11,360 nt of DNA from Chloroflexota bacterium. GTDB lineage: Bacteria > Chloroflexota > Limnocylindria > Limnocylindrales > CSP1-4. The DNA lies in NCBI GenBank assembly GCA_021785115.1, contig JAJYGO010000172.1, positions 1 through 11,360 on the forward strand. The letters run 5' to 3'. Below, piece after piece: positions 1-9,921 of this stretch. Within the stretch, counting starts at the first letter, position 1. Every line of letters starts with the position of its first letter. Below the pieces are notes generated by a model that was given only the letters and a program-made list of their open reading frames with translations, was not told where the DNA came from and searched no databases. Position numbers and translations under genes: made by a program.

Positions 1-559
1 AACCGCCACCTGCGCCGGCACCGGAGCTGCCGGCGGCCGGCGTCGCGGTCGTACCGCTCGTCGACGCGGTCGTGACCTTCGCGACATGCCAGACGCCGCC
101 GTTCGCCCTGATGCCCTCGCCGTTGGTCTGCCCGGGCGCCGTGTCGTTCGCGAAGTAGTACAGGGCGCGGCCGTTGTACGTGACCTGCGAGGCGCCATCG
201 TCCGGGCGCGTGAACGTGGCAAACGTGCCGCTCACCCCGGACGCTCCGGCGGACCCGCCCGTCGGGACGACCAGGGCCGGCCAGAACGAGAGGCACTGCC
301 CGGTGCAGATGCTTCCGTTCGCCGGGTCGGACGAGAGCGTGTAGAGCGTCATCCCGTTCGGCCCCACGAGGAACGTGCCGAGCGAGGTCGTCGAGCGCGT
401 GCCGAGCGTGGCATGGGAGGACATGACGGGCGCGGACGTCGCCCCGCCTCCGTAGGACTGTGCCGCCGCCGGCAGGGCGGCGACGAGCCAGATCACGACG
501 AGCGCAGCACTGGACAGCAGCACGTCGGCGATCGAGCGGCGGGGGACGCGAGCGTGCAT
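1..559 (-). CDS. Secreted COG4315-type repeat protein (Lipoprotein_15-like), 3' end outside window
   Basis: The first 186 residues are visible and the C-terminus lies beyond base 1. Residues 1-33 form a Sec signal peptide: Arg-rich start, hydrophobic stretch about 13-30, then a PAAA-Q cleavage site. There is no lipobox cysteine, so it should be exported but not lipidated. Residues about 60-162 match the secreted repeat family COG4315/PF03640: LGTFLVGPNGMTLYTL, then CTGQC (C85, C89, a likely disulfide) followed by FWPAL, then YNGRALYYFANDT and GGVWHVAKV. Residues 163-186 are Thr/Ala/Gly/Ser linker, so a C-terminal anchor or further domain may follow. The ATG at 559 is chosen because GGAGG lies 8 bases upstream and the signal peptide begins there. 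It diverges from an ECF sigma/anti-sigma pair and is a plausible target of it. The biochemical role of the family is unknown. Confidence 0.88.
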   Translation of the reverse strand, partial: MHARVPRRSIADVLLSSAALVVIWLVAALPAAAQSYGGGATSAPVMSSHATLGTRSTTSLGTFLVGPNGMTLYTLSSDPANGSICTGQCLSFWPALVVPTGGSAGASGVSGTFATFTRPDDGASQVTYNGRALYYFANDTAPGQTNGEGIRANGGVWHVAKVTTASTSGTTATPAAGSSGAGAGGG

Positions 560-620
560 CTGGTGCACCTCCTCGATCTGCAGGGAGACCTCGCGGCGCG
601 AAGCCTCGCCAACACACGGC

Positions 621-650
621 TCCTACGCCGGCTCGCCGCCCGCGGTTTCG
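621..650 (-). promoter_or_regulatory. Candidate ECF-type promoter of the secreted protein gene
   Basis: On the minus strand CGAAACC is followed by 16 bases and then CGTAGGA, about 62 bases upstream of the ATG at 559. The layout matches the plus-strand element at 749-780 (GGAAATCC, 16 bases, CGTATGGA). ECF promoters typically have a GGAAC-like -35 and a CGT-containing -10 at about this spacing. It is a pattern match in very GC-rich DNA with no transcript evidence. Confidence 0.3.
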
Positions 651-748
651 GCACCCGTTCTGGGAAGCCGGAGACGCACGCGCGCTCGATCGACGCGCAG
701 CGAGGCCAGTGCGAAAGGCGGGTATGCTCCCGAGCCACCGACGGACGC

Positions 749-780
749 GGAAATCCGGCCGGGGCCGGCCCGCGTATGGA
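749..780 (+). promoter_or_regulatory. Candidate ECF-type promoter of the sigma/anti-sigma operon
   Basis: GGAAATCC (749-756), 16 bases, then CGTATGGA (773-780). It is built like the divergent element at 621-650. If used, transcription would begin near 787, giving a leader of about 75 bases that contains the 13-bp direct repeat. It fits autoregulation by the ECF factor, which is inference. Confidence 0.3.
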
Positions 781-791
781 AGGGCGCGGGC

Positions 792-822
792 CACGTGAGC
801 TCGACGGGTCACGTGAGCTCGA
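792..822 (+). repeat. 13-bp perfect direct repeat upstream of the sigma gene
   Basis: CACGTGAGCTCGA occurs at 792-804 and again at 810-822, an 18-base period. Each copy contains two overlapping-scale palindromes, CACGTG and GAGCTC. The pair ends 39 bases before the GTG start. It could be a tandem operator or a recent duplication; nothing in the window identifies a binding protein. Confidence 0.75.
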
Positions 823-861
823 GATGGGAGTCGGGGAGGGCGACGAGCAGACGGTGGACAC

Positions 862-1644
862 GTGTCGCAGGCCATCCACGTTCCGGTGGCAGCTCCGATC
901 GGCGTCGGCAGGCTGACGCCTGCTGCCGGTCGCGCGATGGAACCCGCCGGCAACGAGCGGACGCCGCCGCGCGTGGACGAGGTGGCGTCGCGGGTCGACG
1001 ACGAGAGGGTTCAGTTCGATCGCGAACTGGTCGCCCGCATTGCGAACGGCGACGAACGGGCCCTCGGCGTCGCGTACGATCGCCACGCGGCGGTCCTCTA
1101 CGCCGCGTCCGTCCGGATGCTCGCCGATCCGCTTGCGGCCGAGGAGGTCGTCCAGGACACGTTCCTGGCGTTGTGGAGCCACGCCGGGAGCTTCGACGGG
1201 GCGCAGGGCTCCCTGGCCGCGTGGCTCTTCGCGATCGCCCGGAACCGGACGCTCGACCATCTCCGCCGCGCGTCCCGGCGGCCTCGAACGGAACCGACGA
1301 CGGCCCGGGAAGACGAAACCGACGACCTGTTGGAGACGCGGCTCGCGTCGGGCATGCCGGTGGGTGATGGCAGCACCGCGACCGATCCGGCGGAGACCGT
1401 GTCGCGCCGGTGGGCGGCGGCCGTCGTCCGGGCCGTGCTCCAGACGATGCCGCCGCTGGAGCGCGCGCCGCTCGAGCTCGCGTACGACGCCGGTCTCACG
1501 CAGCAGGAGGTCGCGGTGCGCCTCGGGTGGCCCGTCGGGACGGTCAAGACGCGGACCCGACGGGGCCTGCTACGGCTGCGCGAGCTGCTCGAGGGCAGCG
1601 GCGCGCTCGACGACCTGTTGGAGGTGCAGCGTGGAGCACGCTGA
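862..1644 (+). CDS. ECF RNA polymerase sigma factor
   Basis: A group IV (ECF) sigma-70 factor of 260 residues that directs RNA polymerase to a small regulon. Region 2 spans about residues 56-138, including the DRHAAVLY segment, the ADPLAAEEVVQDTFLALW core and the AWLFAIARNRTLDHLRR end. An acidic linker (about 140-185) leads to region 4 (about 190-245), with the helix-turn-helix LTQQEVAVRLGWPVGTVKTR. GTG 862 is the first start available after an in-frame stop, but it lacks a good ribosome-binding site. ATG 937 is an alternative that drops 25 poorly conserved residues and loses no domain. The stop overlaps the anti-sigma start by 14 bases, giving translational coupling. The RskA-like partner points to SigK-like ECF factors, whose activity is released by proteolysis of the membrane anti-sigma factor. 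Confidence 0.93.
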   Translation: MSQAIHVPVAAPIGVGRLTPAAGRAMEPAGNERTPPRVDEVASRVDDERVQFDRELVARIANGDERALGVAYDRHAAVLYAASVRMLADPLAAEEVVQDTFLALWSHAGSFDGAQGSLAAWLFAIARNRTLDHLRRASRRPRTEPTTAREDETDDLLETRLASGMPVGDGSTATDPAETVSRRWAAAVVRAVLQTMPPLERAPLELAYDAGLTQQEVAVRLGWPVGTVKTRTRRGLLRLRELLEGSGALDDLLEVQRGAR

Positions 1645-2587
1645 CGCGCGCGAGCGACTGGTCGGCGCAGCGGCGGATCCGAGCGCGCTTGACCGCCTCG
1701 CCGCCCTCCTCGGATCGCCGGCCACCACGGCGGACACGGCGGACGGGCGCGCGGTGACCGCCGGCGCGGATGCATCTGCCGGTGTGCCCGATCCATCTGC
1801 CCCCGCGGCCGACGCACCTGAGGCGGCCGATGCGCGAGCCGACTCCGACCTGCGTGCGCACCTCGAGACGTGCGCGGCGTGCCGCGCGGACCTGGAGGGA
1901 TGGCGGGCGACCGCAGCCGCCATCCGCGGCGCGCTGGCGTCGCCAGACCCGCGTCCAGACGCCGTGCCCGCCGATCCGGCCGCGCTGCGCGCTGTGACCC
2001 TCGCGCGGGTCCGCGAGTCCGGCGTCCGCACCGACCTCCCGGCCCGGCCCCTCGTGACCGGGATCCGGTCCGGCTGGGCGAGTCGCCTGCGACGGGGGGC
2101 GTTCTCCAACCCCCTTCGACTCGCCGGCGTGGCTGCGGCCGTGGTCGCGCTCGTGCTCGGCACGGCCGTCATCCGCGATCTGTCCGCGGAGCGGGACCGG
2201 GCACAGCAGACCGCCCGCGCGGCGGCGTCGCTGGCCGCGACCGTGGACCAGGTGCTGCAGGAACCGGGTGCGCGGGTCGTGACGTTGCATGGGCCTGCGA
2301 GCTCATCCGCGAGCGGCGTGCTGCTGTGGGGCCCATCCTCGGGCCAGGTCGTGGTGATGACCCAGGCGCTGGCGCCGCCGCCGGCCGGATCCTCGTACGA
2401 CTGTTGGTTCGAGCAGGCCGGACGGCGCGTCGTGGTCGGTCGGATGACGTTCTCGGGCGACCTCGCCTATTGGGCGGGCCCGCTCGACGTGTGGACCTCC
2501 GGAGATCCTTCGGGCCTGCCGTTCGGCGTCAGCCTCGCGACCGCCGGAGGATCGCCCGGCGCTCCGATGCTGGTCGGCCGGTTGTGA
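1631..2587 (+). CDS. Membrane anti-sigma factor with zinc-finger motif and RskA-like C-terminal domain
   Basis: A 318-residue partner of the upstream ECF sigma factor. The GTG at 1631 has GGAGG at 1620-1624, a 6-base spacing, inside the end of the sigma gene. The N-terminal cytoplasmic part carries the ZAS signature H-x3-C-x2-C (H77, C81, C84). One transmembrane helix covers about residues 164-181, followed by a short charged coiled-coil-like segment (183-210). The outer domain (about 215-318) resembles PF10099 (RskA): GVLLWGPSSGQVVVM, the YDCWFEQ region and a GxPFGVSLA end. In this family the cytoplasmic domain holds sigma at the membrane until regulated proteolysis. The Ala/Asp/Pro-rich insertion at residues 29-72 pushes the zinc motif unusually far from the N-terminus. 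An open frame continues upstream of 1631, but it only shadows the sigma gene. Confidence 0.92.
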   Translation: MEHADARERLVGAAADPSALDRLAALLGSPATTADTADGRAVTAGADASAGVPDPSAPAADAPEAADARADSDLRAHLETCAACRADLEGWRATAAAIRGALASPDPRPDAVPADPAALRAVTLARVRESGVRTDLPARPLVTGIRSGWASRLRRGAFSNPLRLAGVAAAVVALVLGTAVIRDLSAERDRAQQTARAAASLAATVDQVLQEPGARVVTLHGPASSSASGVLLWGPSSGQVVVMTQALAPPPAGSSYDCWFEQAGRRVVVGRMTFSGDLAYWAGPLDVWTSGDPSGLPFGVSLATAGGSPGAPMLVGRL

Positions 2588-2596
2588 CGGGCGTCG

Positions 2597-2615
2597 CCCG
2601 CGGGTTCACCGCGGG
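2597..2615. terminator. Hairpin at the convergent gene junction
   Basis: CCCGCGG (2597-2603), a 5-base loop, then CCGCGGG (2609-2615): a perfect 7-bp all-G/C stem. A second 5-bp stem, CGGGC/GCCCG, sits at 2588-2600 directly after the anti-sigma stop. The structure overlaps the stop codon of the minus-strand regulator. No T-tract follows on either strand, so it would be a non-canonical bidirectional terminator. Confidence 0.4.
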
Positions 2616-3361
2616 TCGAGCGCGGAGCCGGGCGGCGGGGGCTCGTGGCTGACGTGACGCCGCGCGCCGTCCGCCGGATCGGATGCCACGCGCAGCTCGA
2701 CGCAGCACGCGTCCGGTGACGGCGCGAACACGGGCTCTGCCCGGGCGTCCGGGAAACCCGCGGTCAGCCCCTGCAGCAGCGCCAGATTCATCGAGCAGGT
2801 CAGCTCGCGGTGCGTCGCAAGGAGGGCGTCGAACGGGCAGTTCCTGAGCCTGATCGTCGCCGCGTCCGAGCCCGTTTCGGGCTCGTAGCCGGATCGTTCG
2901 AGGCAGGCGACCAGGGCGCCGGCGCCGCCGGCCGGGTTCCCGGCGGCGGCAGCGATCCTGGCCCCGCGGGCTCGGGCGACCTCGAGCACGCCCGTGCGTC
3001 GGGTGCCCTCCGCACCCTGCTCGATCGCCGTCGCGAGGACGTCCGCCGCCAGCCCGTAGCGGCGCTCCGGCAGCGACACGGCGACCTCGCCGGGGACGCG
3101 CGCGTACAGCTTCGCGGGTCGTCCTGCACCCGGCCCGGACCGGCCGGTGAGCCGTCGGTACTCGACCCGAAGGAGCCCCGCGTCGACGAGACGGTCCAGG
3201 TGGAACGCGGCCAGCTTCCGGCCGATCCCGGTGCCGGCAGCCGCCTCGTCCCGACCGACGGGCGCATGGCGCGACGACACGAACTCGTACAGGCGCCGCC
3301 GGGTGGGCTCTGCGAGCGTCCCAACGGCAGACAGCCGGTCCGCCGGTACAGGTGCGTCCAT
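2606..3361 (-). CDS. ArsR/SufR-like (COG2345) transcriptional regulator, probable Fe-S cluster sensor
   Basis: A 251-residue DNA-binding regulator. Residues about 9-65 form a winged helix-turn-helix (AEPTRRRLYEFV, then GRKLAAFHLDRLVDAGLL) with a wing ending GRPAKLYAR (80-88), the classic COG2345 layout. The C-terminal domain has cysteines C175 (NCPF), C189 and C219/C220 (ACCVEL). SufR, in the same broad family, binds a 4Fe-4S cluster through three C-terminal cysteines with similar spacing, so a cluster sensing oxygen, NO or Fe-S status is likely. It diverges from the folE operon across 116 bases and is the obvious regulator of it. A -10-like TAGAGT ends 6 bases before the ATG, suggesting a leaderless mRNA, and no properly spaced ribosome-binding site is seen. 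Family is fairly certain; cluster and signal are inferred. Confidence 0.9.
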   Translation of the reverse strand: MDAPVPADRLSAVGTLAEPTRRRLYEFVSSRHAPVGRDEAAAGTGIGRKLAAFHLDRLVDAGLLRVEYRRLTGRSGPGAGRPAKLYARVPGEVAVSLPERRYGLAADVLATAIEQGAEGTRRTGVLEVARARGARIAAAAGNPAGGAGALVACLERSGYEPETGSDAATIRLRNCPFDALLATHRELTCSMNLALLQGLTAGFPDARAEPVFAPSPDACCVELRVASDPADGARRHVSHEPPPPGSALDPR

Positions 3362-3395
3362 CCCCTGACTCTACTACCAAAATGCGCTGGCACAA
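3362..3395 (-). promoter_or_regulatory. Candidate leaderless promoter of the SufR-like regulator
   Basis: On the minus strand TTGTGC (3390-3395), 16 bases, then TAGAGT (3368-3373). Transcription would start at or next to the A of the ATG at 3361. AGGGG touches the ATG directly and cannot serve as a normally spaced ribosome-binding site, which supports leaderless initiation. Confidence 0.35.
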
Positions 3396-3428
3396 GTGTT
3401 GACACACCCCGAGATCCGATGCTATAGC
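3396..3428 (+). promoter_or_regulatory. Sigma-70-type promoter of folE with embedded inverted repeat
   Basis: TTGACA (3399-3404) is a perfect -35, followed after 18 bases by TATAGC (3423-3428), giving a leader of about 43 bases. The inverted repeat GTGT-TG-ACAC (3396-3405) covers the -35 and adjoins the -35 of the divergent regulator promoter, so one bound dimer could block both. GCTATAGC at 3421-3428 is an 8-bp palindrome over the -10. The operator role is inference. Confidence 0.55.
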
Positions 3429-3477
3429 TAGTGCGTACTGGCGTTAGAGACACGTCAGCCGCGGTGGAGGATCACTC

Positions 3478-4221
3478 ATGGCAGCACCCGACCTCGAACT
3501 CCCTCGGCTGGCGGTCGCGGCGCCGGGCCTGCTTGCACAGGAGGCGCGCCCGCCTGCGCAGCAGCCAGGCCTGCGCGCGCAGGGGCGGACGGCGGAGCCC
3601 TTGGCAGGCGCCGCCACGCGGCCTCCGTTGAGCGACCGCGAGCGGCGGCGATTCGAGCAGTACCTCGGGGAGGTGCTCGGCCGCCTGGGGCTGGACTTCG
3701 CGACGCCGGCGACCACCGATACGCCGCGCCGATTCCTGCAGGCGCTCGTCGACGCCACCGACGGGTACGAGGGCGACCCGAAGCTGGTCACGACGTTCCC
3801 GACCGAGTGCCACGGCGGTTCGGCGTGCGAGCTCGACCAGGTGGTCGAAGGGCCGATCCCGTTCTCCGCCCTCTGCGAGCACCACGCGCTGCCGTTCATC
3901 GGCGAGTCCTACGTCGGGTACGTGGCGCACGAGGAGATCCTCGGGATCAGCAAGTTGACGCGTCTCGTCCGCGTGGTCACGCACCGCTTCGGCGTCCAGG
4001 AGCGCATGACGGAGCAGATCGCCGACGAGCTCACGCGGATCGTGTCACCGCACGGCGTGGCCGTCCGGCTCGTGGCGCACCACGCGTGCACGCAGATCCG
4101 CGGCGTTCGGGAGATGTCGGCACGGACGCGGACGACGGCATACCGGGGCGTGTACGTCCGCGATGCCGCATTGCGGCGGGAGTTCCTCGAGCTGTCCGGT
4201 GTCGGAAGGGGTGCGTCATGA
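3478..4221 (+). CDS. folE: GTP cyclohydrolase I
   Basis: Converts GTP to 7,8-dihydroneopterin triphosphate, the first step to folate and other pterins. Aligned to the E. coli enzyme with a constant offset of 23 residues, all key positions are kept: zinc ligands C133, H136 and C204, catalytic H135 and H202, and active-site K159, Q174, E175 and R208. Motifs are CEHHALPFIG, GISKLTRLV and HHACTQIRGVRE. ATG 3478 has GGAGG at 3466-3470, 7 bases away. The first 50 or so residues are a Pro/Ala/Gln-rich extension before the LSDRERRRFEQYLGEVLGRLGL core, making the protein (247 aa) longer than the usual 185-225. It is the first gene of a coupled operon, its stop overlapping the next ATG as ATGA. A second folE elsewhere in the genome could not be excluded. 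Confidence 0.96.
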   Translation: MAAPDLELPRLAVAAPGLLAQEARPPAQQPGLRAQGRTAEPLAGAATRPPLSDRERRRFEQYLGEVLGRLGLDFATPATTDTPRRFLQALVDATDGYEGDPKLVTTFPTECHGGSACELDQVVEGPIPFSALCEHHALPFIGESYVGYVAHEEILGISKLTRLVRVVTHRFGVQERMTEQIADELTRIVSPHGVAVRLVAHHACTQIRGVREMSARTRTTAYRGVYVRDAALRREFLELSGVGRGAS

Positions 4222-5180
4222 CGGTCGCGTCGACGGAAGCCACCGATGGCGCACGCGTCGGTTCGATCGATCTCGCGCCGACTGTCGAGGCCGGCGCCCC
4301 GCTTGCACCGCTGTCGGTTCGTCCGGTCCCGCTCGAGCTCGCATGGGACGCCGTCGATCCCGCCGCGTCCTCGCGCGGCGGCCTTCCGGACTCGCTGCGC
4401 GCCCGGTACGGCGGGGATCTGTTCGTGGCGCTGCACCCGGCTCGACCGATCGTGATCGCCAACTTCGTCTCGACCATCGACGGCGTCGTCGCCTTCGATC
4501 GCGAGGGTAGGACGGGCGGCGGCGAGGTCAGCGGCTACTCGGAGCCCGACCGGTTCGTCATGGCGCTGCTTCGCGCGCTCGCCGACGTCGTGATCGTGGG
4601 CGCCGGAACCGTGCGAGCCGGTGGCGGCGAGCCGTGGACGCCGGCGGGCATCCATCCGGAAACGGCGGTCGAGACCGCGGCGTGGCGAGCCGCGCTGGGC
4701 CTCGCGCCCCACCCGACGACCGTCGTGTTGACGCGTGGCGGGGAGCTCGACGTGTCGGTCCCGGGACTCTCGGCGCCCGATATGCCGGTCATGGTGCTCA
4801 CGACGCCTGCGGGCTCCCGGCGCATCGCGCCCCAGGCTCGTGCCGGCCTCGTGGTCGCGGAGACGGGCTCGGACGTGGTCGATCCATCCGCCGTGCTCGA
4901 CCTCGTGTCGGCGATCGGCGGTCGCGTCGCGCTCTGCGAGGGCGGGCCGCACGTCCTCGGGGAGTTCGTCCGTGCCAGGCTCGTCGACGAGCTGTTCCTG
5001 ACGCTCTCTCCCCGGCTCGCCGGCCGCGACCCGCGCTCGCCGCGCCTGGGTCTCGTCGAGGGGTCCGCATTCGGCCCGTACGACGCGCCATGGCTCGGGC
5101 TGCGGTCTGCACGTCGCGCCGGAGACCACCTGTTCCTGCGCTACGCGAGACGGACCGTGATGGAGGAGGGGGCCGCGTGA
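4218..5180 (+). CDS. RibD C-terminal / dihydrofolate reductase-like NADPH reductase
   Basis: A 320-residue protein with a RibD_C (PF01872) fold, the dihydrofolate-reductase-like domain that reduces pyrimidine or pterin substrates with NADPH. About 75 N-terminal residues of weak similarity precede the domain. Visible motifs are IVIANFVSTIDG (78-89, substrate strand and S-x-x-D-G), VIVGAGTVRAGG (125-136, cofactor), ALCEGGPHVLGEF (238-250) and VDELFLTLSPRLAG. There is no deaminase domain, so it is not a full RibD. The ATG overlaps the folE stop by 4 bases, with GGAAGGGG 6 bases upstream. Related stand-alone reductases include M. tuberculosis Rv2671, reported to stand in for dihydrofolate reductase. 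Coupling to folE suggests it reduces a pterin made from the FolE product. A riboflavin-type pyrimidine reductase remains possible. Confidence 0.88.
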   Translation: MTVASTEATDGARVGSIDLAPTVEAGAPLAPLSVRPVPLELAWDAVDPAASSRGGLPDSLRARYGGDLFVALHPARPIVIANFVSTIDGVVAFDREGRTGGGEVSGYSEPDRFVMALLRALADVVIVGAGTVRAGGGEPWTPAGIHPETAVETAAWRAALGLAPHPTTVVLTRGGELDVSVPGLSAPDMPVMVLTTPAGSRRIAPQARAGLVVAETGSDVVDPSAVLDLVSAIGGRVALCEGGPHVLGEFVRARLVDELFLTLSPRLAGRDPRSPRLGLVEGSAFGPYDAPWLGLRSARRAGDHLFLRYARRTVMEEGAA

Positions 5181-6414
5181 TGGACCGGCTGGGGACCGTG
5201 GCGATCGTGGGCGGCGGACTGGCCGGTGCGACGGCGGCGCGGGCGCTGCGCGACGAGGGTTTCGACGGCGGGCTCGTGTCGTCGGGGACGAGAGCGAGTT
5301 CCCGTACGACCGGCCTCCACTCTCCAAGGGCTATCTCCGCGGCGAGATGACACGCGCCGCGCTCGGCGTGAACGAGCCGGCCTGGTACGAGCGGCAGTCG
5401 ATCGACTGGCGGTGCGGCCTGGCCGTCGTCGAGCTCGATGCGGCTGCCCGCGTGCTGCGCCTGTCGGACGGTTCCCGTGTGCGCTTCGACGCTCTGCTGC
5501 TCGCCACCGGTGCTGCGCCGCGAATCCCGGACGTGCCGGGGGCGCACCTGCGCGGCGTACATGCCCTCCGGACGGCCCGCGACGCGGACGAGATCCGGGA
5601 AGCCGCAGCGGCCGCCTCGCGCATTGCCGTTGTCGGGGGCGGCTGGATCGGCGCAGAGGTCGCGGCGTCGCTGCGTCAGCTCGGCTGTGACGTCGCGCTG
5701 GTCGTGCCCGGGCAGGCGCCGCTGGAGCGCGTCCTCGGGTCACACGTCGCCTCCGTGTACCGCGAGCTCCACGAGTCGCACGGCGTCGACGTCATGGCCG
5801 CGGAGCGGGCTGCCTCGTTCGAGGGCGGCGGGCGCGTTGCGGCCGTGCGCATGGCTTCGGGCCGTCGGATCCCTGCCGACCTCGTCGTCGTCGGCACCGG
5901 CGTCGAGCCTCGAACCGACCTCGCGACGGCGGCAGGCCTGCCCGTCGATGGCGGGATCGTCGCGAGCGAGTACCTCGAGACCGGCGCGCCCGGCGTGTTC
6001 GCGGCCGGCGACGTCGCAGCCGCGTGGCACCCACGCCTCCGGGTGCGGCTGCGTCTCGAGCACTGGGACAACGCCATCCGGCAGGGCCGGACCGCGGCGC
6101 TGAACATGCTCGGCCGCCGCACCGCCCACGATGCCGTCCCGTACTTCTATTCGGACCAGTACGACCTCGGGATGGAGTACTTCGGCCACGCCTCGGGGTC
6201 GGAGCGAGCCGTGCTGCGGGGCGTTCCTCGCGATGGCGCATTCATGGCGTTCTGGCTGCGCGACGGCGCGATCGCCGCCGCAATGCACGCGAACGAGTGG
6301 GACGCGGCCGACGACCTGCGCCGGCTCGTCGAGCAGTCGAGCCGGGTGGATCCCGCGCTCCTGGCGGACGAGAAAGTGCCGCTCGGGGTGCTCGGCACCG
6401 AGCAGGCCGCCTGA
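5180..6414 (+). pseudogene. FAD-dependent NAD(P)H reductase (putidaredoxin-reductase type) with apparent one-base frameshift
   Basis: Class of ferredoxin/rubredoxin/putidaredoxin reductases that pass electrons from NAD(P)H through FAD to a small redox protein. ATG 5180 overlaps the previous stop by one base (TGATG), with GGAGGAGGGG just upstream. The first 33 codons encode the FAD-binding VAIVGGGLAGATAA segment. At about 5278 the frame breaks: the expected L-V-V-V-G-D-E continues only in the next frame (GDESEFPYDRPPLSKGYLRG), consistent with one lost base in GTGGTCGTC-like sequence. Downstream the protein is intact to 6414: LLLATGAAPRIPDV, the NAD-binding VVGGGWIGAEVA, TGVEPRTDLA, GVFAAGDVA and a Reductase_C domain starting YFYSDQYDLGMEYFGHA. 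The repaired length is 411 residues, normal for the family. This is either a sequencing/assembly error or a recent inactivation. An internal ATG at 5347 would lack the FAD motif. Confidence 0.9.
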
Positions 6415-6441
6415 CGGGGAAGGGGACTCGGCCGCGCGCGA

Positions 6442-6915
6442 CGAGATAGCGCAGCCGATCCCGCCCTTGCCACCACGATGTGGCGCGCCGCGCCGGTGAA
6501 CCGGCCCGAGGGCAGGATCCTCGGCGCGCAGTACGTCGGCGTCCTCGGCTCGGGCTTCACCCGGTACGACCTCACGGTGACGTCCGGGATGCCGAAGGAG
6601 CTGCTGGCGGGAACCGGTTGGCGGACCGGGACCGTCATCCACGGTCTCCTGCTCGGCGAGGGGGACGCCGCGTACGCGGGCTCGGGCGGGATCGCGATCA
6701 TGCGCGGCGATGCCGTCGACACGAAGGGCGCCCCGCTTCCGACGACGGTCACCATCCGCACGTCACCGGCCGGCGCGCGCGTGTTCGATGCCGGCACGTT
6801 CGCATGGGCAGACGGGTTCGCGCCGCCCGCGATTGCGCTCGGCGTGAGCGCGGCGAGCTTCGACCGCTTCAACAGGAACCTGCTGACCTGGTTGGGATTC
6901 CCGCCGAAGGGATGA
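6442..6915 (+). pseudogene. 5'-truncated fragment resembling the N,N-dimethylformamidase large-subunit C-terminal domain
   Basis: From ATG 6478 the frame encodes 145 residues: MWRAAPVNRPEGRILGAQYVG, then LLAGTGWRTGTVIHGLLLGEG, IAIMRGDAV, GARVFDAGTFAWADGF and the end FDRFNRNLLTWLG. From memory this matches the C-terminal end of the N,N-dimethylformamidase beta-subunit-like family (PF20254-like), whose members run to several hundred residues. Family-like sequence continues upstream of the ATG (DPALATTMWR), no ribosome-binding site precedes the ATG, and the stop of the flavin reductase lies only 63 bases away. I therefore read it as the tail of a gene whose front was deleted. The exact left breakpoint is uncertain. 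A short functional protein is possible but less likely. Confidence 0.6.
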
Positions 6916-6940
6916 GCGTCGGGCGGCCCGGGTTGCGGCC

Positions 6941-7366
6941 CTACTGCGTGGCGAGGCTCGCCGCCGGGGCGCGGAGCTCGGCCGGCCGCCACGTCCACGA
7001 CCACCGGGCGATCGCCAGGCAGCCGAGGGTCTCGAGGGCCGCGATGAACACGTAGTGCGGCGTGGCCGAGCCCAGCCCGAGCACGTATGCCACCGTCACC
7101 ACGGCGGCGGCGATGTTCGCCCACCGCGCGGTCCGCTGCGGCAGCAGCAGCGAGAGCAGGACCATCGCGATCGGCACCTCCGCGACGACCGCGGCGATCA
7201 GCAGGAAACCAGGGGTGATCTGGATGCCGTCCGCGCTGCCCGTCAGGACCTGCTGGAGCGTGCCCGGGCTCATGAACGACAGGATGTCCGCGAAGATCAT
7301 GTTGAGCATGACGAACACCCACGCCGCGGACAGGCGCGCCCTGATGCCGACCGGTTCGGTATGCAC
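6941..7366 (-). CDS. Small four-helix membrane protein, DUF6326-like
   Basis: A 141-residue integral membrane protein with four hydrophobic helices at about residues 12-32, 52-74, 80-99 and 104-121. The opening LSAAWVFVMLNMIFADILSFMSPGTLQQVLTG and the middle ITPGFLLIAAVVAEVPIAMVLLSLLLP resemble the DUF6326 family of unknown function. GTG 7366 is chosen because AAGGAG (7372-7377) lies 5 bases upstream. The frame is open to an ATG at 7438, but that start falls inside an operator and would add 24 low-complexity residues. It diverges from a TetR gene and shares two palindromic operators with it, so it is probably the repressor's target. It ends 25 bases from the convergent fragment upstream. Function and ligand are unknown. 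Confidence 0.85.
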   Translation of the reverse strand: MHTEPVGIRARLSAAWVFVMLNMIFADILSFMSPGTLQQVLTGSADGIQITPGFLLIAAVVAEVPIAMVLLSLLLPQRTARWANIAAAVVTVAYVLGLGSATPHYVFIAALETLGCLAIARWSWTWRPAELRAPAASLATQ

Positions 7367-7418
7367 GATGACTCCTTCGGCCGGACGGGGCGAGCCGGTG
7401 CCGGCGGGCGTCGATGCG

Positions 7419-7439
7419 GATACTAACGCTGTTAGCATC
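7419..7439. promoter_or_regulatory. TetR-type operator 1
   Basis: GAT-A-CTAAC-GCT-GTTAG-C-ATC, a 21-bp inverted repeat that is perfect apart from one inner pair. The core CTAAC-N3-GTTAG (7423-7435) recurs at 7458-7470, centres 35 bases apart. It lies 53 bases upstream of the membrane-protein start, and its left half reads TAGTAT on the minus strand, a possible -10 for that gene. Confidence 0.85.
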
Positions 7440-7456
7440 GACTGCAGGCATCCTGG

Positions 7457-7471
7457 ACTAACGGTGTTAGT
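7457..7471. promoter_or_regulatory. TetR-type operator 2
   Basis: ACTAAC-GGT-GTTAGT, a perfect 15-bp inverted repeat with the same core as operator 1. It lies about 51 bases upstream of the chosen TetR start. TAGTAT at 7468-7473 faces the TetR gene as a possible -10, mirroring operator 1. The 6-bp palindrome CTGCAG lies midway between the two sites. Confidence 0.85.
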
Positions 7472-7522
7472 ATGTCAAGCGGGCCGTTCGGCCCGTCCGG
7501 GAGCACACGACATGGAGGCGTG

Positions 7523-8209
7523 GTGCCGCGCAGGAAGCGCGAGGGTGAACCGTTCGAGACGGTGAGCCGCGAGCGCGTGCTGCGGGCGGCGGTCGCGCTG
7601 GTGGACGAGCGCGGGATCGAGGCCCTCACGATGCGCGATCTCGCCGGCCGGCTCGGCATCGAGGCCGCGTCGCTCTACAACCACGTCTCGGGCAAGGACG
7701 ACCTCCTCCTCGGGATGGCGGACCTCGTCATCGCGGAGATCGACCTGCCGTCAGAAGGCACGGGCTGGCGCGAGGCCATGCGACGCCGGGCCATGTCGGC
7801 GCGCCAGCTCTTCGCGCGTCACCCGTGGGCGGCCGCGCTCATCGACACCCGCATGCAGGCTCAGCCGAGCGGCCTCGCGTACGCGGACCGCGTCCTGGGC
7901 ACGCTCCTTCGCGCGGGCCTCTCTCCGGCCGTCGCGGGCAACGCGTTCCTCGTCCTCGACAGCTACATCTACGGCTACGAGCGCCAGCGGTCGATCCTGG
8001 CCAGGGATGACGGCGGCGACTCCACGGACACGGCGCAGGAGGTCGCCGATGCGATCGAGCCGGGCGCCTTTCCGGCGCTCATGCAGGTGGCGGCGGCGTA
8101 CGCGGAGGAGCCGTTCGACGAGGATGCCGGGTTCGCGTTCGGCCTCGACCTGCTGCTCGACGGGATCGAGCGGCTGCTGCCGGCAGGTCAGCCGCAGAAG
8201 AGGCCATGA
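7523..8209 (+). CDS. TetR/AcrR family repressor (TetR_C_1-like)
   Basis: A 228-residue TetR-family regulator. Residues about 15-62 form the N-terminal DNA-binding domain: RERVLRAAVALVDERGIEALTMRDLAGRLGIEAASLYNHVSGKDDLL. The rest is the all-helical ligand-binding and dimer domain. The segment WREAMRRRAMSARQLFARHPWAAALID and the later FLVLDSYIYGYERQ fit the TetR_C_1 group, which includes the tetracycline repressor. GTG 7523 is chosen because GGAGG is at 7514-7518. GTG 7520 and ATG 7472 are in frame, but the ATG abuts operator 2 and would add residues unlike the family. It diverges from the DUF6326-like gene across twin CTAAC-N3-GTTAG sites, the pattern of a local autoregulated repressor. The ligand is unknown. 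Confidence 0.93.
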   Translation: MPRRKREGEPFETVSRERVLRAAVALVDERGIEALTMRDLAGRLGIEAASLYNHVSGKDDLLLGMADLVIAEIDLPSEGTGWREAMRRRAMSARQLFARHPWAAALIDTRMQAQPSGLAYADRVLGTLLRAGLSPAVAGNAFLVLDSYIYGYERQRSILARDDGGDSTDTAQEVADAIEPGAFPALMQVAAAYAEEPFDEDAGFAFGLDLLLDGIERLLPAGQPQKRP

Positions 8210-8251
8210 TGGACGCGATACCTCCCTTGGCGGCGTGCGCCCGATACGTGT

Positions 8252-8273
8252 CGTGCGGCTGAACGGCCGCACG
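8252..8273. terminator. Hairpin between tetR-like and dehydrogenase genes
   Basis: CGTGCGGC (8252-8259), 6-base loop, GCCGCACG (8266-8273): a perfect 8-bp stem 43 bases after the TetR stop and 74 bases before the dehydrogenase start. No T-tract follows, so it may be a non-canonical terminator or an mRNA/protein-binding element. Confidence 0.4.
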
Positions 8274-8347
8274 CGCCTCGCGCTGCACGTCCGAATCGGC
8301 GCGACGGCGACCGTCGACCCTTCCTTCACCCGCACTTCGGAGCCTGC

Positions 8348-9394
8348 GTGACCATGCGAGCAGCGATCTTCAACGGACCGCACAGGATCGAATACGGCGA
8401 ACGGCCGGATCCGGTCATCCTGGAGCCGACCGACGCGATCGTGCGAGTCACGCTCGCGTGCGTCTGCGGCTCGGACCTCTGGTACTACCGTGGCCTCACC
8501 CCGCACGAGCGCGGCCCGATCGGGCACGAGTTCATGGGCGTGGTCGAGGAGGTCGGCGCGGCCGCCACCGATCTGGCCAGGGGCGATCTCGTGGTCGCGC
8601 CGTTCACGTACAGCGATGGCACCTGCCCGATCTGCCGGGCCGGCGTGACGTCGCAGTGCCTCCACGGTGGGGGGTTCGGAAACCACGGCATCGACGGGGG
8701 TCAGGGTGAGGCGGTCCGCGTGCCGCTGGCAGCCTCGACACTCGTGAAGGTGCCCGGCTCCGGTCATTCGGACGAGACCCTGCGCTCGGTGCTCGCGCTG
8801 TCCGACGTCATGTGCACCGGGCACCACGCCGCGATGAGCGCGGGCGTGAAGCCGGGCGACACAGTGGCCGTGGTCGGCGACGGCGCGGTCGGGCTCTGCG
8901 CCGTGATCGCCGCCTGCCGCCTCGGCGCATCGCGCGTCATCGCGCTCAGCCGCAACCCCGCGCGCCAGGCGCTCGCGCGAGCGTTCGGCGCGACCGACGT
9001 CGTGAGCGAGCGAGGCGAGGCCGCCAACGCCGCGGTGCTCGAGCTCACCGGCGGGCTCGGCGTGAACGCCGCGCTCGAGTGCGTCGGGACGGGGGAGTCG
9101 ATGGCGACCGCCTTCGCGATCGCGCGGGCGGGCTCGACGGTGGGGGCCGTCGGCGCACCGCACGACGTCCGGGTCCCGATCGAGACGGTGATCTTCAGGA
9201 ACGTCGGACTCCGCGGGGGTGTCGCGCCGGCTCGCGTGTACATCCCCGAGCTCCTCCCGGACGTCCTCGAGGGCCGCATCGAGCCGGGCCGCGTGTTCGA
9301 CTTCGAGACGGAGCTCGAGCACGTCGCGGAGGCCTACGCGGCGATGGACGAGCGGCGGGCGATCAAGAGCCTCCTGCGCGTGGGCGCGGCGTGA
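8348..9394 (+). CDS. Zinc-dependent alcohol dehydrogenase family (MDR) oxidoreductase
   Basis: A 348-residue medium-chain dehydrogenase oxidising an alcohol (or reducing an aldehyde) with NAD(P). The GroES-like catalytic domain has zinc ligands C40 (CGSD) and H60-E61 (GHEFMGVVEEVG). The structural-zinc loop, YSDGTCPICRAGVTSQC, has C93, C96 and C104, but D90 stands where the first cysteine is expected. The Rossmann fold has VAVVGDGAVGLCAV, and its second strand ends ALSRNPAR without the usual acidic residue, which may favour NADP. GTG 8348 has GGAG at 8339-8342, 5 bases away. ATG 8354 is equally plausible and gives the common MRAAIFNGP start. It lies 126 bases before a cupin gene on the same strand. 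Substrate cannot be read from the sequence. Confidence 0.93.
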   Translation: MTMRAAIFNGPHRIEYGERPDPVILEPTDAIVRVTLACVCGSDLWYYRGLTPHERGPIGHEFMGVVEEVGAAATDLARGDLVVAPFTYSDGTCPICRAGVTSQCLHGGGFGNHGIDGGQGEAVRVPLAASTLVKVPGSGHSDETLRSVLALSDVMCTGHHAAMSAGVKPGDTVAVVGDGAVGLCAVIAACRLGASRVIALSRNPARQALARAFGATDVVSERGEAANAAVLELTGGLGVNAALECVGTGESMATAFAIARAGSTVGAVGAPHDVRVPIETVIFRNVGLRGGVAPARVYIPELLPDVLEGRIEPGRVFDFETELEHVAEAYAAMDERRAIKSLLRVGAA

Positions 9395-9519: not shown

Positions 9520-9921
9520 ATGGAGTTCACACCGAAGCCCCCGACCTCGAAAGCGCCGGCCGACACGTTCACCGGCGATGCCTGGGTCGACATGATCGTG
9601 CGTGGCGAGGCGCCGTCGCGCGTCCGCGCGGCGATCGTGCGCTTCGCGCCCGGCGCCAGGAACGCCTGGCATGTCCATGCCCTCGGGCAGACCGTGCACG
9701 TGACCGAGGGCGTCGGGCTCATCCAGTCGCGCGGAGGGCAGGTCGCCGAGATGCGTCCCGGCGACACGGTCGTCACGCCTCCCGGCGAGTGGCACTGGCA
9801 CGGCGCCGCGCCCGACCGGTTCATGACCCACCTCGCGATCTGGGAGGCGCCGGACGACGGAGGCCCGGAGACCGAGTGGGGCGACCTCGTCACGGACGAG
9901 GAGTACGGCGCCGCACCGTGA
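9520..9921 (+). CDS. Single-domain cupin, hydroxynitrile-lyase-like
   Basis: A 133-residue cupin. Motif 1 is NAWHVHALGQTVHVTEG with metal ligands H51, H53 and Q57, and motif 2 is PGDTVVTPPGEWHWHGAAP with H92 and a nearby H94. This set (H, H, Q, H) and the ending MTHLAIWE resemble the small manganese cupins that include the bacterial hydroxynitrile lyase of Granulicella (H53, H55, Q59, H94), so the fold and metal site are well supported. The family also holds proteins of unknown function, so cyanohydrin cleavage is only a candidate activity. ATG 9520 has AGGAG at 9507-9511, 8 bases away. It follows the dehydrogenase on the same strand after 125 bases containing an 18-bp triple repeat. The pair could act on related aldehydes. 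Confidence 0.9.
   Translation: MEFTPKPPTSKAPADTFTGDAWVDMIVRGEAPSRVRAAIVRFAPGARNAWHVHALGQTVHVTEGVGLIQSRGGQVAEMRPGDTVVTPPGEWHWHGAAPDRFMTHLAIWEAPDDGGPETEWGDLVTDEEYGAAP

Follow-up and report, generated by a model that had tools for sequence, protein, structure and literature searches.

Reduced pterins are known from pathways beside and outside folate synthesis. In the FolX-FolM pathway, according to the excerpted account, a branch of the product of GTP cyclohydrolase I (FolE) is reduced to a tetrahydropterin, tetrahydromonapterin, beside folate (PMC1971073), and PruA-PruR-DcpA signaling, in the available part of its description, gives a reduced pterin a role outside folate (PMC13259868). Rv2671 of Mycobacterium tuberculosis is a dihydrofolate reductase (DHFR) analogue whose N44, D67, and E193 contact antifolates in a partial text of the structural work (PMC10530724; adding 12 to that paper's numbering is our reading). 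Regulators of the SufR type, known from Synechocystis and as Rv1460, have an N-terminal helix-turn-helix (HTH) domain and C-terminal cysteines and are encoded divergently from their target; for Rv1460 (C203-x12-C216-x27-C244), the excerpt describes the three cysteines as needed and reports cluster binding (PMC6034842). Here, we describe a locus with likenesses to each of these systems in an 11,360-nt stretch of a Chloroflexota bacterium of the order Limnocylindrales (contig JAJYGO010000172.1, assembly GCA_021785115.1; the whole stretch is hereafter called the window). A divergent GTP cyclohydrolase I, FolE-II, is followed by a stand-alone RibD_C reductase, RibDC, and by an FAD-dependent reductase, and a SufR-like regulator diverges from the three. 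We put at roughly one in two the probability that this is a dedicated route, under redox control, to a pterin reduced to the tetrahydro level.

The FolE-II gene (3478..4221, forward strand) encodes 247 amino acids (aa) and matches the family domain PF01227 at 158 bits (E 2e-46, cut-off 27). It carries LCEHH at residue 132, SKLTR at 158, QER at 174, and HHACTQIRG at 201, which we take to be the catalytic motifs of GTP cyclohydrolase I, in agreement with the initial annotation of an enzyme with all key residues. Its score against the NCBIfam folE equivalog TIGR00063 is 139.9 bits, below the cut-off of 181.6, and we therefore regard it as a divergent family member. The same region is found in a second assembly, G001 (76% complete, 450 contigs), whose contig C46 aligns with window positions 383-8870 at 99.68% identity with one gap and is public as JAKAAV010000072.1 of the metagenome-assembled genome (MAG) Chloroflexi bacterium WH2.bin114; some near relatives of the window proteins are labeled Candidatus Limnocylindrales. 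The initial annotation had proposed looking for a second folE and a missing folA, and both were found: three genes of G001 match PF01227, with 250 (the ordinary folE), 167, and 158 bits (the window gene), and folA has no match there. In a midpoint-rooted tree of 58 FolE sequences, 56 FolE-II sequences separate with 100/100 support from the ordinary gene of G001 and that of locus L127, and the Streptomyces FolE of L150 falls among the FolE-II sequences. The L127 gene, which lies upstream of a RibDC gene and within the ordinary clade, and the canonical G001 gene (L004) were left out of the FolE-II counts. These data support a FolE-reductase unit that stands apart from the genome's ordinary folE. 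A third folE-type gene (L005 on G001 contig C213, and L149) is 52-55% identical to FolE-II and has no RibDC beside it.

The RibDC gene (4218..5180, forward strand; 320 aa, PF01872, E 2.6e-19) overlaps the end of FolE-II by 4 bases (ATGA) and the start of the FAD reductase gene by 1 base (TGATG). Since each stop overlaps the next start, translational coupling of the three genes is plausible. Rv2671 is the best Protein Data Bank (PDB) match of RibDC both by sequence and by fold, at about 28-30% identity; the best fold match of the RibDC model is 4xrb, and in a second look the fold scores of Rv2671 and Rib7 were tied. N82, D111, and E241, invariant in 34 RibDC sequences, align with N44, D67, and E193 of Rv2671, so that RibDC joins the RibD_C fold to the antifolate-contacting Asn, Asp, and Glu of the Rv2671 type, and the titles of the Rv2671 structures 4xt4 and 4xt6 name dihydro- and tetrahydropteridine rings. 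The likeness is nevertheless incomplete, RibDC reaching 92 of the 226 bits set for the NCBIfam equivalog of Rv2671 ("pyrimidine reductase family protein"). We know of no folE adjoining Rv2671. A candidate FolE-RibD_C fusion, P0055, was not used; its FolE N terminus is missing and a frameshift is possible. In three complete or near-complete relatives with no FolE-II nearby (L125, L126, and L128), RibDC lies directly 3' of what is presumably a phosphatidylserine decarboxylase-like gene.

Conservation was assessed in 126 genomes of the order (37 of them good) and 400 Chloroflexota genomes; many are incomplete, and some contigs end near the gene. Across the phylum sample, RibDC is present in 144 genomes (E up to 1e-15) and FolE-II in 74, at 84 places (E up to 1e-40). 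At 58 of the 84 places, a RibDC gene lies no more than 1.5 kb downstream of FolE-II in the same orientation, 47 of these pairs being within 150 bases and nine at about 700-750 bases; of the nine, five were inspected (L130-L134), and in each a short-chain dehydrogenase/reductase (SDR) gene fills the gap. This adjacency count covers all 84 FolE-II places and 126 RibDC places, weaker RibDC matches being left out, and genome presence uses all 144. RibDC occurs in 68 of the 74 FolE-II genomes versus 76 of the 326 others (Fisher p 5.6e-29; like the other Fisher values here, it is not corrected for kinship). The pair is also carried, with overlapping ends, by three Streptomyces plasmid records, the plasmids being megaplasmids, where it is annotated as folE and "dihydrofolate reductase family protein". 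We recognized no description of a FolE-RibD_C operon in the open-access PMC literature. Guessed from sequence to be a dihydropteridine reductase, the SDR of L130-L134 proved to have generic SDR matches in PDB and NCBIfam, and that assignment was dropped. A DUF488 gene stands about 1 kb downstream of the pair on the Streptomyces plasmids; within about 3 kb of FolE-II, DUF488 is found at four Chloroflexota loci (L135, L137, L138, and L121) and on a Streptomyces plasmid (L150).

The third gene of the putative operon encodes the FAD-dependent reductase (5180..6414, forward strand). The initial annotation was right about its presence and its place after RibDC; its start is 5180 rather than 5347, and the frame is broken near 5275-5285, leaving 5347-6414 open. 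In contig L006, 99.68% identical, the frame is open throughout; an assembly error and a real lesion in the window cannot be told apart. The open part matches PF07992 (Pyr_redox_2, 179.2 bits) and PF14759 (Reductase_C, 65.6 bits), the same combination as in the AndAa/HcaD ferredoxin reductases. Unlike for those enzymes, however, the best NCBIfam match, AndAa, reaches 243.9 of 650 bits for this open part of a broken gene, and the window has no dioxygenase or ferredoxin gene.

The regulator gene (2606..3361, reverse strand) encodes a 251-aa protein that matches PF12840 (HTH_20) at 27.9 bits against a cut-off of 27 and contains NC-x13-C-x29-CC (C175, C189, C219, and C220), bearing out the SufR-like protein proposed to diverge from the operon. 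Among the best 120 of 7945 homologues, all have NC-x13-C and a later CC, and 110 have 30 residues from the second to the last cysteine. The protein shows the mark of the SufR family, an HTH at the N terminus and three spaced cysteines toward the C terminus (C-x13-C-x30-C), and probably holds an iron-sulfur (Fe-S) cluster on C175, C189, and C220. It differs from SufR in its x13 and x30 spacings and in that none of the 13 window proteins scanned is a suf product, whereas the regulators of L117, L122, L139, and L142 share the x12 of Rv1460 exactly. The window regulator matches no NCBIfam model and, by sequence, no PDB entry at E up to 1, and fold comparison gave HTH-level matches only, none at E 0.001 or better. 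In the divergent spacer (3362..3477), TTGACA (3399-3404) and TATAGC (3423-3428), 18 bases apart, were picked out by eye, and CTAG/CTAAC-type sites lie at 3427-3432 and 3443-3447. In six regulator-facing spacers, CTA[AG]C, a pattern chosen post hoc, occurs 14 times on both strands versus 4.0 times in shuffles, and plain CTAG occurs 8 times versus 3.7 expected (p 0.024). The CTAG/CTAAC-type sites of the window spacer are a candidate operator.

The exact four-gene composition is genuine, though patchy in its distribution. All four genes, with the FAD reductase at full length, are found together in the window species and at three further loci in two genera, L049 and L072 of G097 and L078 of G057, with FAD reductase identities of 55%, 53%, and 48%; L049 was also seen as L043 from MAG MnB_4. 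The three enzymes occur without the regulator at L083 (51%) and L110 (48%). At L053 and L071, the regulator, FolE-II, and RibDC are accompanied by a bacterial globin, lying between regulator and FolE-II in the former and downstream in the latter, where the regulator is frame-broken and the FAD reductase match is a fragment. Of the family's 21 pairs, six have the regulator, five a full-length FAD reductase, and four both (one-sided p 0.011, kinship not corrected). The initial annotation thus described a gene arrangement that is real in the window, as domains, motifs, overlaps, and conservation counts attest; what is conserved, however, is the pair of FolE-II and RibDC, and the full set is rare.

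Neighbors were counted at 56 FolE-II loci, within 3 kb (316 kb in total) versus farther stretches (342 kb). Because these loci were partly gathered through RibDC, their 40/56 with RibDC is biased, and 58/84 is the fairer figure. The regulator model REG matches near 13 loci and far from one, and a second model, derived from L117 and L122, near four and far from none, two of them new, giving 15 of 56 loci in all. A C-terminal cysteine cluster is present in 15 of 15, in three spacings: C-x13-C-x29-CC (L006, L049, L053, L071, L072, L078, L144, and L146), C-x12-C with two to five further cysteines (L117, L122, L139, and L142), and C-x5-C-x32-C-x4-C (L145, L147, and L148). Near-versus-far counts of loci are 8 versus 1 for HxlR and 2 versus 0 for the globin (both Pfam names), 10 versus 2 for the FAD reductase, 12 versus 2 for SDR, 9 versus 0 for the DUF2231 type, 5 versus 1 for DUF488, and 2 versus 0 for the 6-pyruvoyltetrahydropterin synthase (PTPS) family. 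The kind of regulators and neighbors provides the link to redox, and the redox setting suggested earlier is supported by cysteine-cluster HTH regulators near 15 loci and globins near two. A DUF2231-Rieske membrane protein stands beside FolE-II in L111 and L114, the Rieske part being confirmed by Pfam for L111 only; further DUF2231-type matches are near FolE-II in L053, L140, L142, L144, L145, L147, and L148, and none of the 56 loci has both the DUF2231 type and the FAD reductase. A secreted or lipoprotein-like family, C33, which has no Pfam match, lies upstream of FolE-II in L071, L072, L110, and L136 (4 near versus 0 far).

In the pathway that we propose, FolE-II would convert GTP to 7,8-dihydroneopterin triphosphate, and RibDC, as an NAD(P)H enzyme with the DHFR fold and akin to Rv2671, would reduce this dihydropterin or a dephosphorylated form of it to a tetrahydropterin. 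The FAD reductase may maintain the pool in reduced form by passing electrons either to the oxidized pterin or to a redox protein that acts as its partner. The SufR-like protein, with its predicted labile Fe-S cluster, would repress the operon, and cluster loss through oxygen, nitric oxide (NO), or iron shortage could release it and derepress the genes. Like FolX-FolM, this would be a reduced-pterin branch off the FolE product; however, the FolX-FolM reductase is an SDR with TGX3RXG, whereas here the reductase is a RibD_C protein and no FolX is seen in the window. PruA, likewise, is the pteridine reductase of another system, and neither PruR nor DcpA was recognized in the window. The reduced-pterin reading fits better than folate or riboflavin because the FolE product is not bound for riboflavin, folate can be served by the ordinary FolE, and the partner enzyme is a reductase akin to Rv2671, which binds pterins. 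Two observations weigh against it: 76 genomes have RibDC and no FolE-II, which speaks against a strict tie, and canonical RibD is over the cut-off in only two of nine genomes checked (G004 and G403), several of the other seven being incomplete and RibD being the only riboflavin gene searched. Of the dedicated reduced-pterin pathway envisaged in the initial annotation, the separate FolE-reductase unit and the redox setting are retained, and the seven genomes keep a riboflavin role alive beside it. An aromatic amino acid hydroxylase, present in 42 of the 400 genomes, was considered as a client and rejected (5 of 74 FolE-II genomes versus 37 of 326 others, p 0.30).

A fuller version of the proposal is that FolE-II and RibDC form an undescribed tetrahydropterin pathway, switched by a SufR-like Fe-S protein and spread over Chloroflexota and on Streptomyces plasmids, whose product might act as a soluble redox mediator or cofactor against oxygen or NO and might be kept reduced by the FAD reductase or by the DUF2231-Rieske membrane protein; we offer it tentatively, and as a whole it is doubtful. 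If true, it would mean that reduced pterins are made through RibD_C proteins as well as through SDR and DHFR enzymes, place bacterial pterin synthesis under Fe-S-type control, and assign a function to a large family whose members now go by the name "dihydrofolate reductase family protein" or "riboflavin biosynthesis pyrimidine reductase". Since the pair is on a plasmid in three Streptomyces strains, the idea is testable in cultured organisms.

It is rather unlikely that RibDC is instead the stand-in DHFR of a folA-less lineage, with FolE-II boosting folate in times of stress. Rv2671 is itself a DHFR analogue, and Cupriavidus metallidurans, according to the available part of a study (PMC10882993), uses additional FolE enzymes to make folate when under metal stress. 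Moreover, folA (PF00186) was found in none of the 126 genomes of the order and in 25 of the 400 of the phylum at E up to 1e-3, 13 of them strong matches (E < 1e-10). However, folA is missing in the order with or without RibDC, which is present in only 42 of these 126 genomes (14 of the 37 good ones), and RibDC is equally common in phylum genomes with folA (4 of 13) and without it (140 of 387; p 0.78); FolE-II is in 5 of the 13. Since four genomes of the phylum hold both folA and RibDC, and three of them the entire pair (G280, G403, and G468), RibDC is not simply a folA replacement, and we dropped it as the general DHFR of the order. In addition, ThyX lessens the need for a DHFR, and it is present in eight of nine genomes checked, the exception being G403, which has folA. 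The folate salvage suggested by the initial annotation is disfavored on the same grounds.

A role of RibDC as the riboflavin pyrimidine reductase, its place beside FolE-II merely co-regulating two GTP-derived cofactor routes, is distinctly unlikely. The seven genomes without canonical RibD over the cut-off would favor it, as do the tied fold scores of Rib7 and Rv2671 and the name "riboflavin biosynthesis pyrimidine reductase" that many sources give to relatives. Nonetheless, RibDC lacks a deaminase domain and scores far below both riboflavin equivalogs (28.6 of 156.35 bits for TIGR00326 and 49.3 of 186.45 bits for TIGR01508), it is missing from most genomes of the order, and G004 and G403 hold canonical RibD together with the pair. 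In the established pathways, the FolE product does not lead to riboflavin. No further folate or riboflavin gene was found among the 13 window proteins scanned with Pfam and NCBIfam, as the initial annotation had stated.

Finally, it is very unlikely that the FolE-II islands are mixed, with dihydroneopterin triphosphate going to products that differ between loci (other pterins, or deazapurine by way of a QueD-like enzyme) and no single redox pathway: third genes do differ between loci, and in L144 and L146 the gene after FolE-II is of the PTPS/QueD family, but that family is near only 2 of the 56 loci, RibDC adjoins FolE-II at most places, and the regulator and FAD reductase occur together as described above. 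The CxxxHGH motif of these two genes is that of PTPS-I/QueD in the excerpted text of PMC5041015, which warns of mistaking QueD for the PTPS of the tetrahydrobiopterin pathway; the rat-like PTPS match of L146 (E 6e-30) was accordingly dropped as a sign of that pathway. None of the window proteins scanned is a PTPS, and none has the PTPS-II motif of the tetrahydrobiopterin pathway, CxxxxxHGH.

The remaining proteins of the window are ECF sigma, RskA_C, DMFA2_C, DUF6326, TetR, Zn-ADH, a mandelonitrile-lyase-like cupin, Lipoprotein_15, and the N terminus of a 7TM-PAS histidine kinase. The ECF sigma factor and then the RskA_C anti-sigma factor (862-2587) lie just upstream of the regulator gene, on the opposite strand. 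The small cupin (9520-9921) exceeds the NCBIfam (R)-mandelonitrile lyase cut-off, at 169.4 versus 140 bits.

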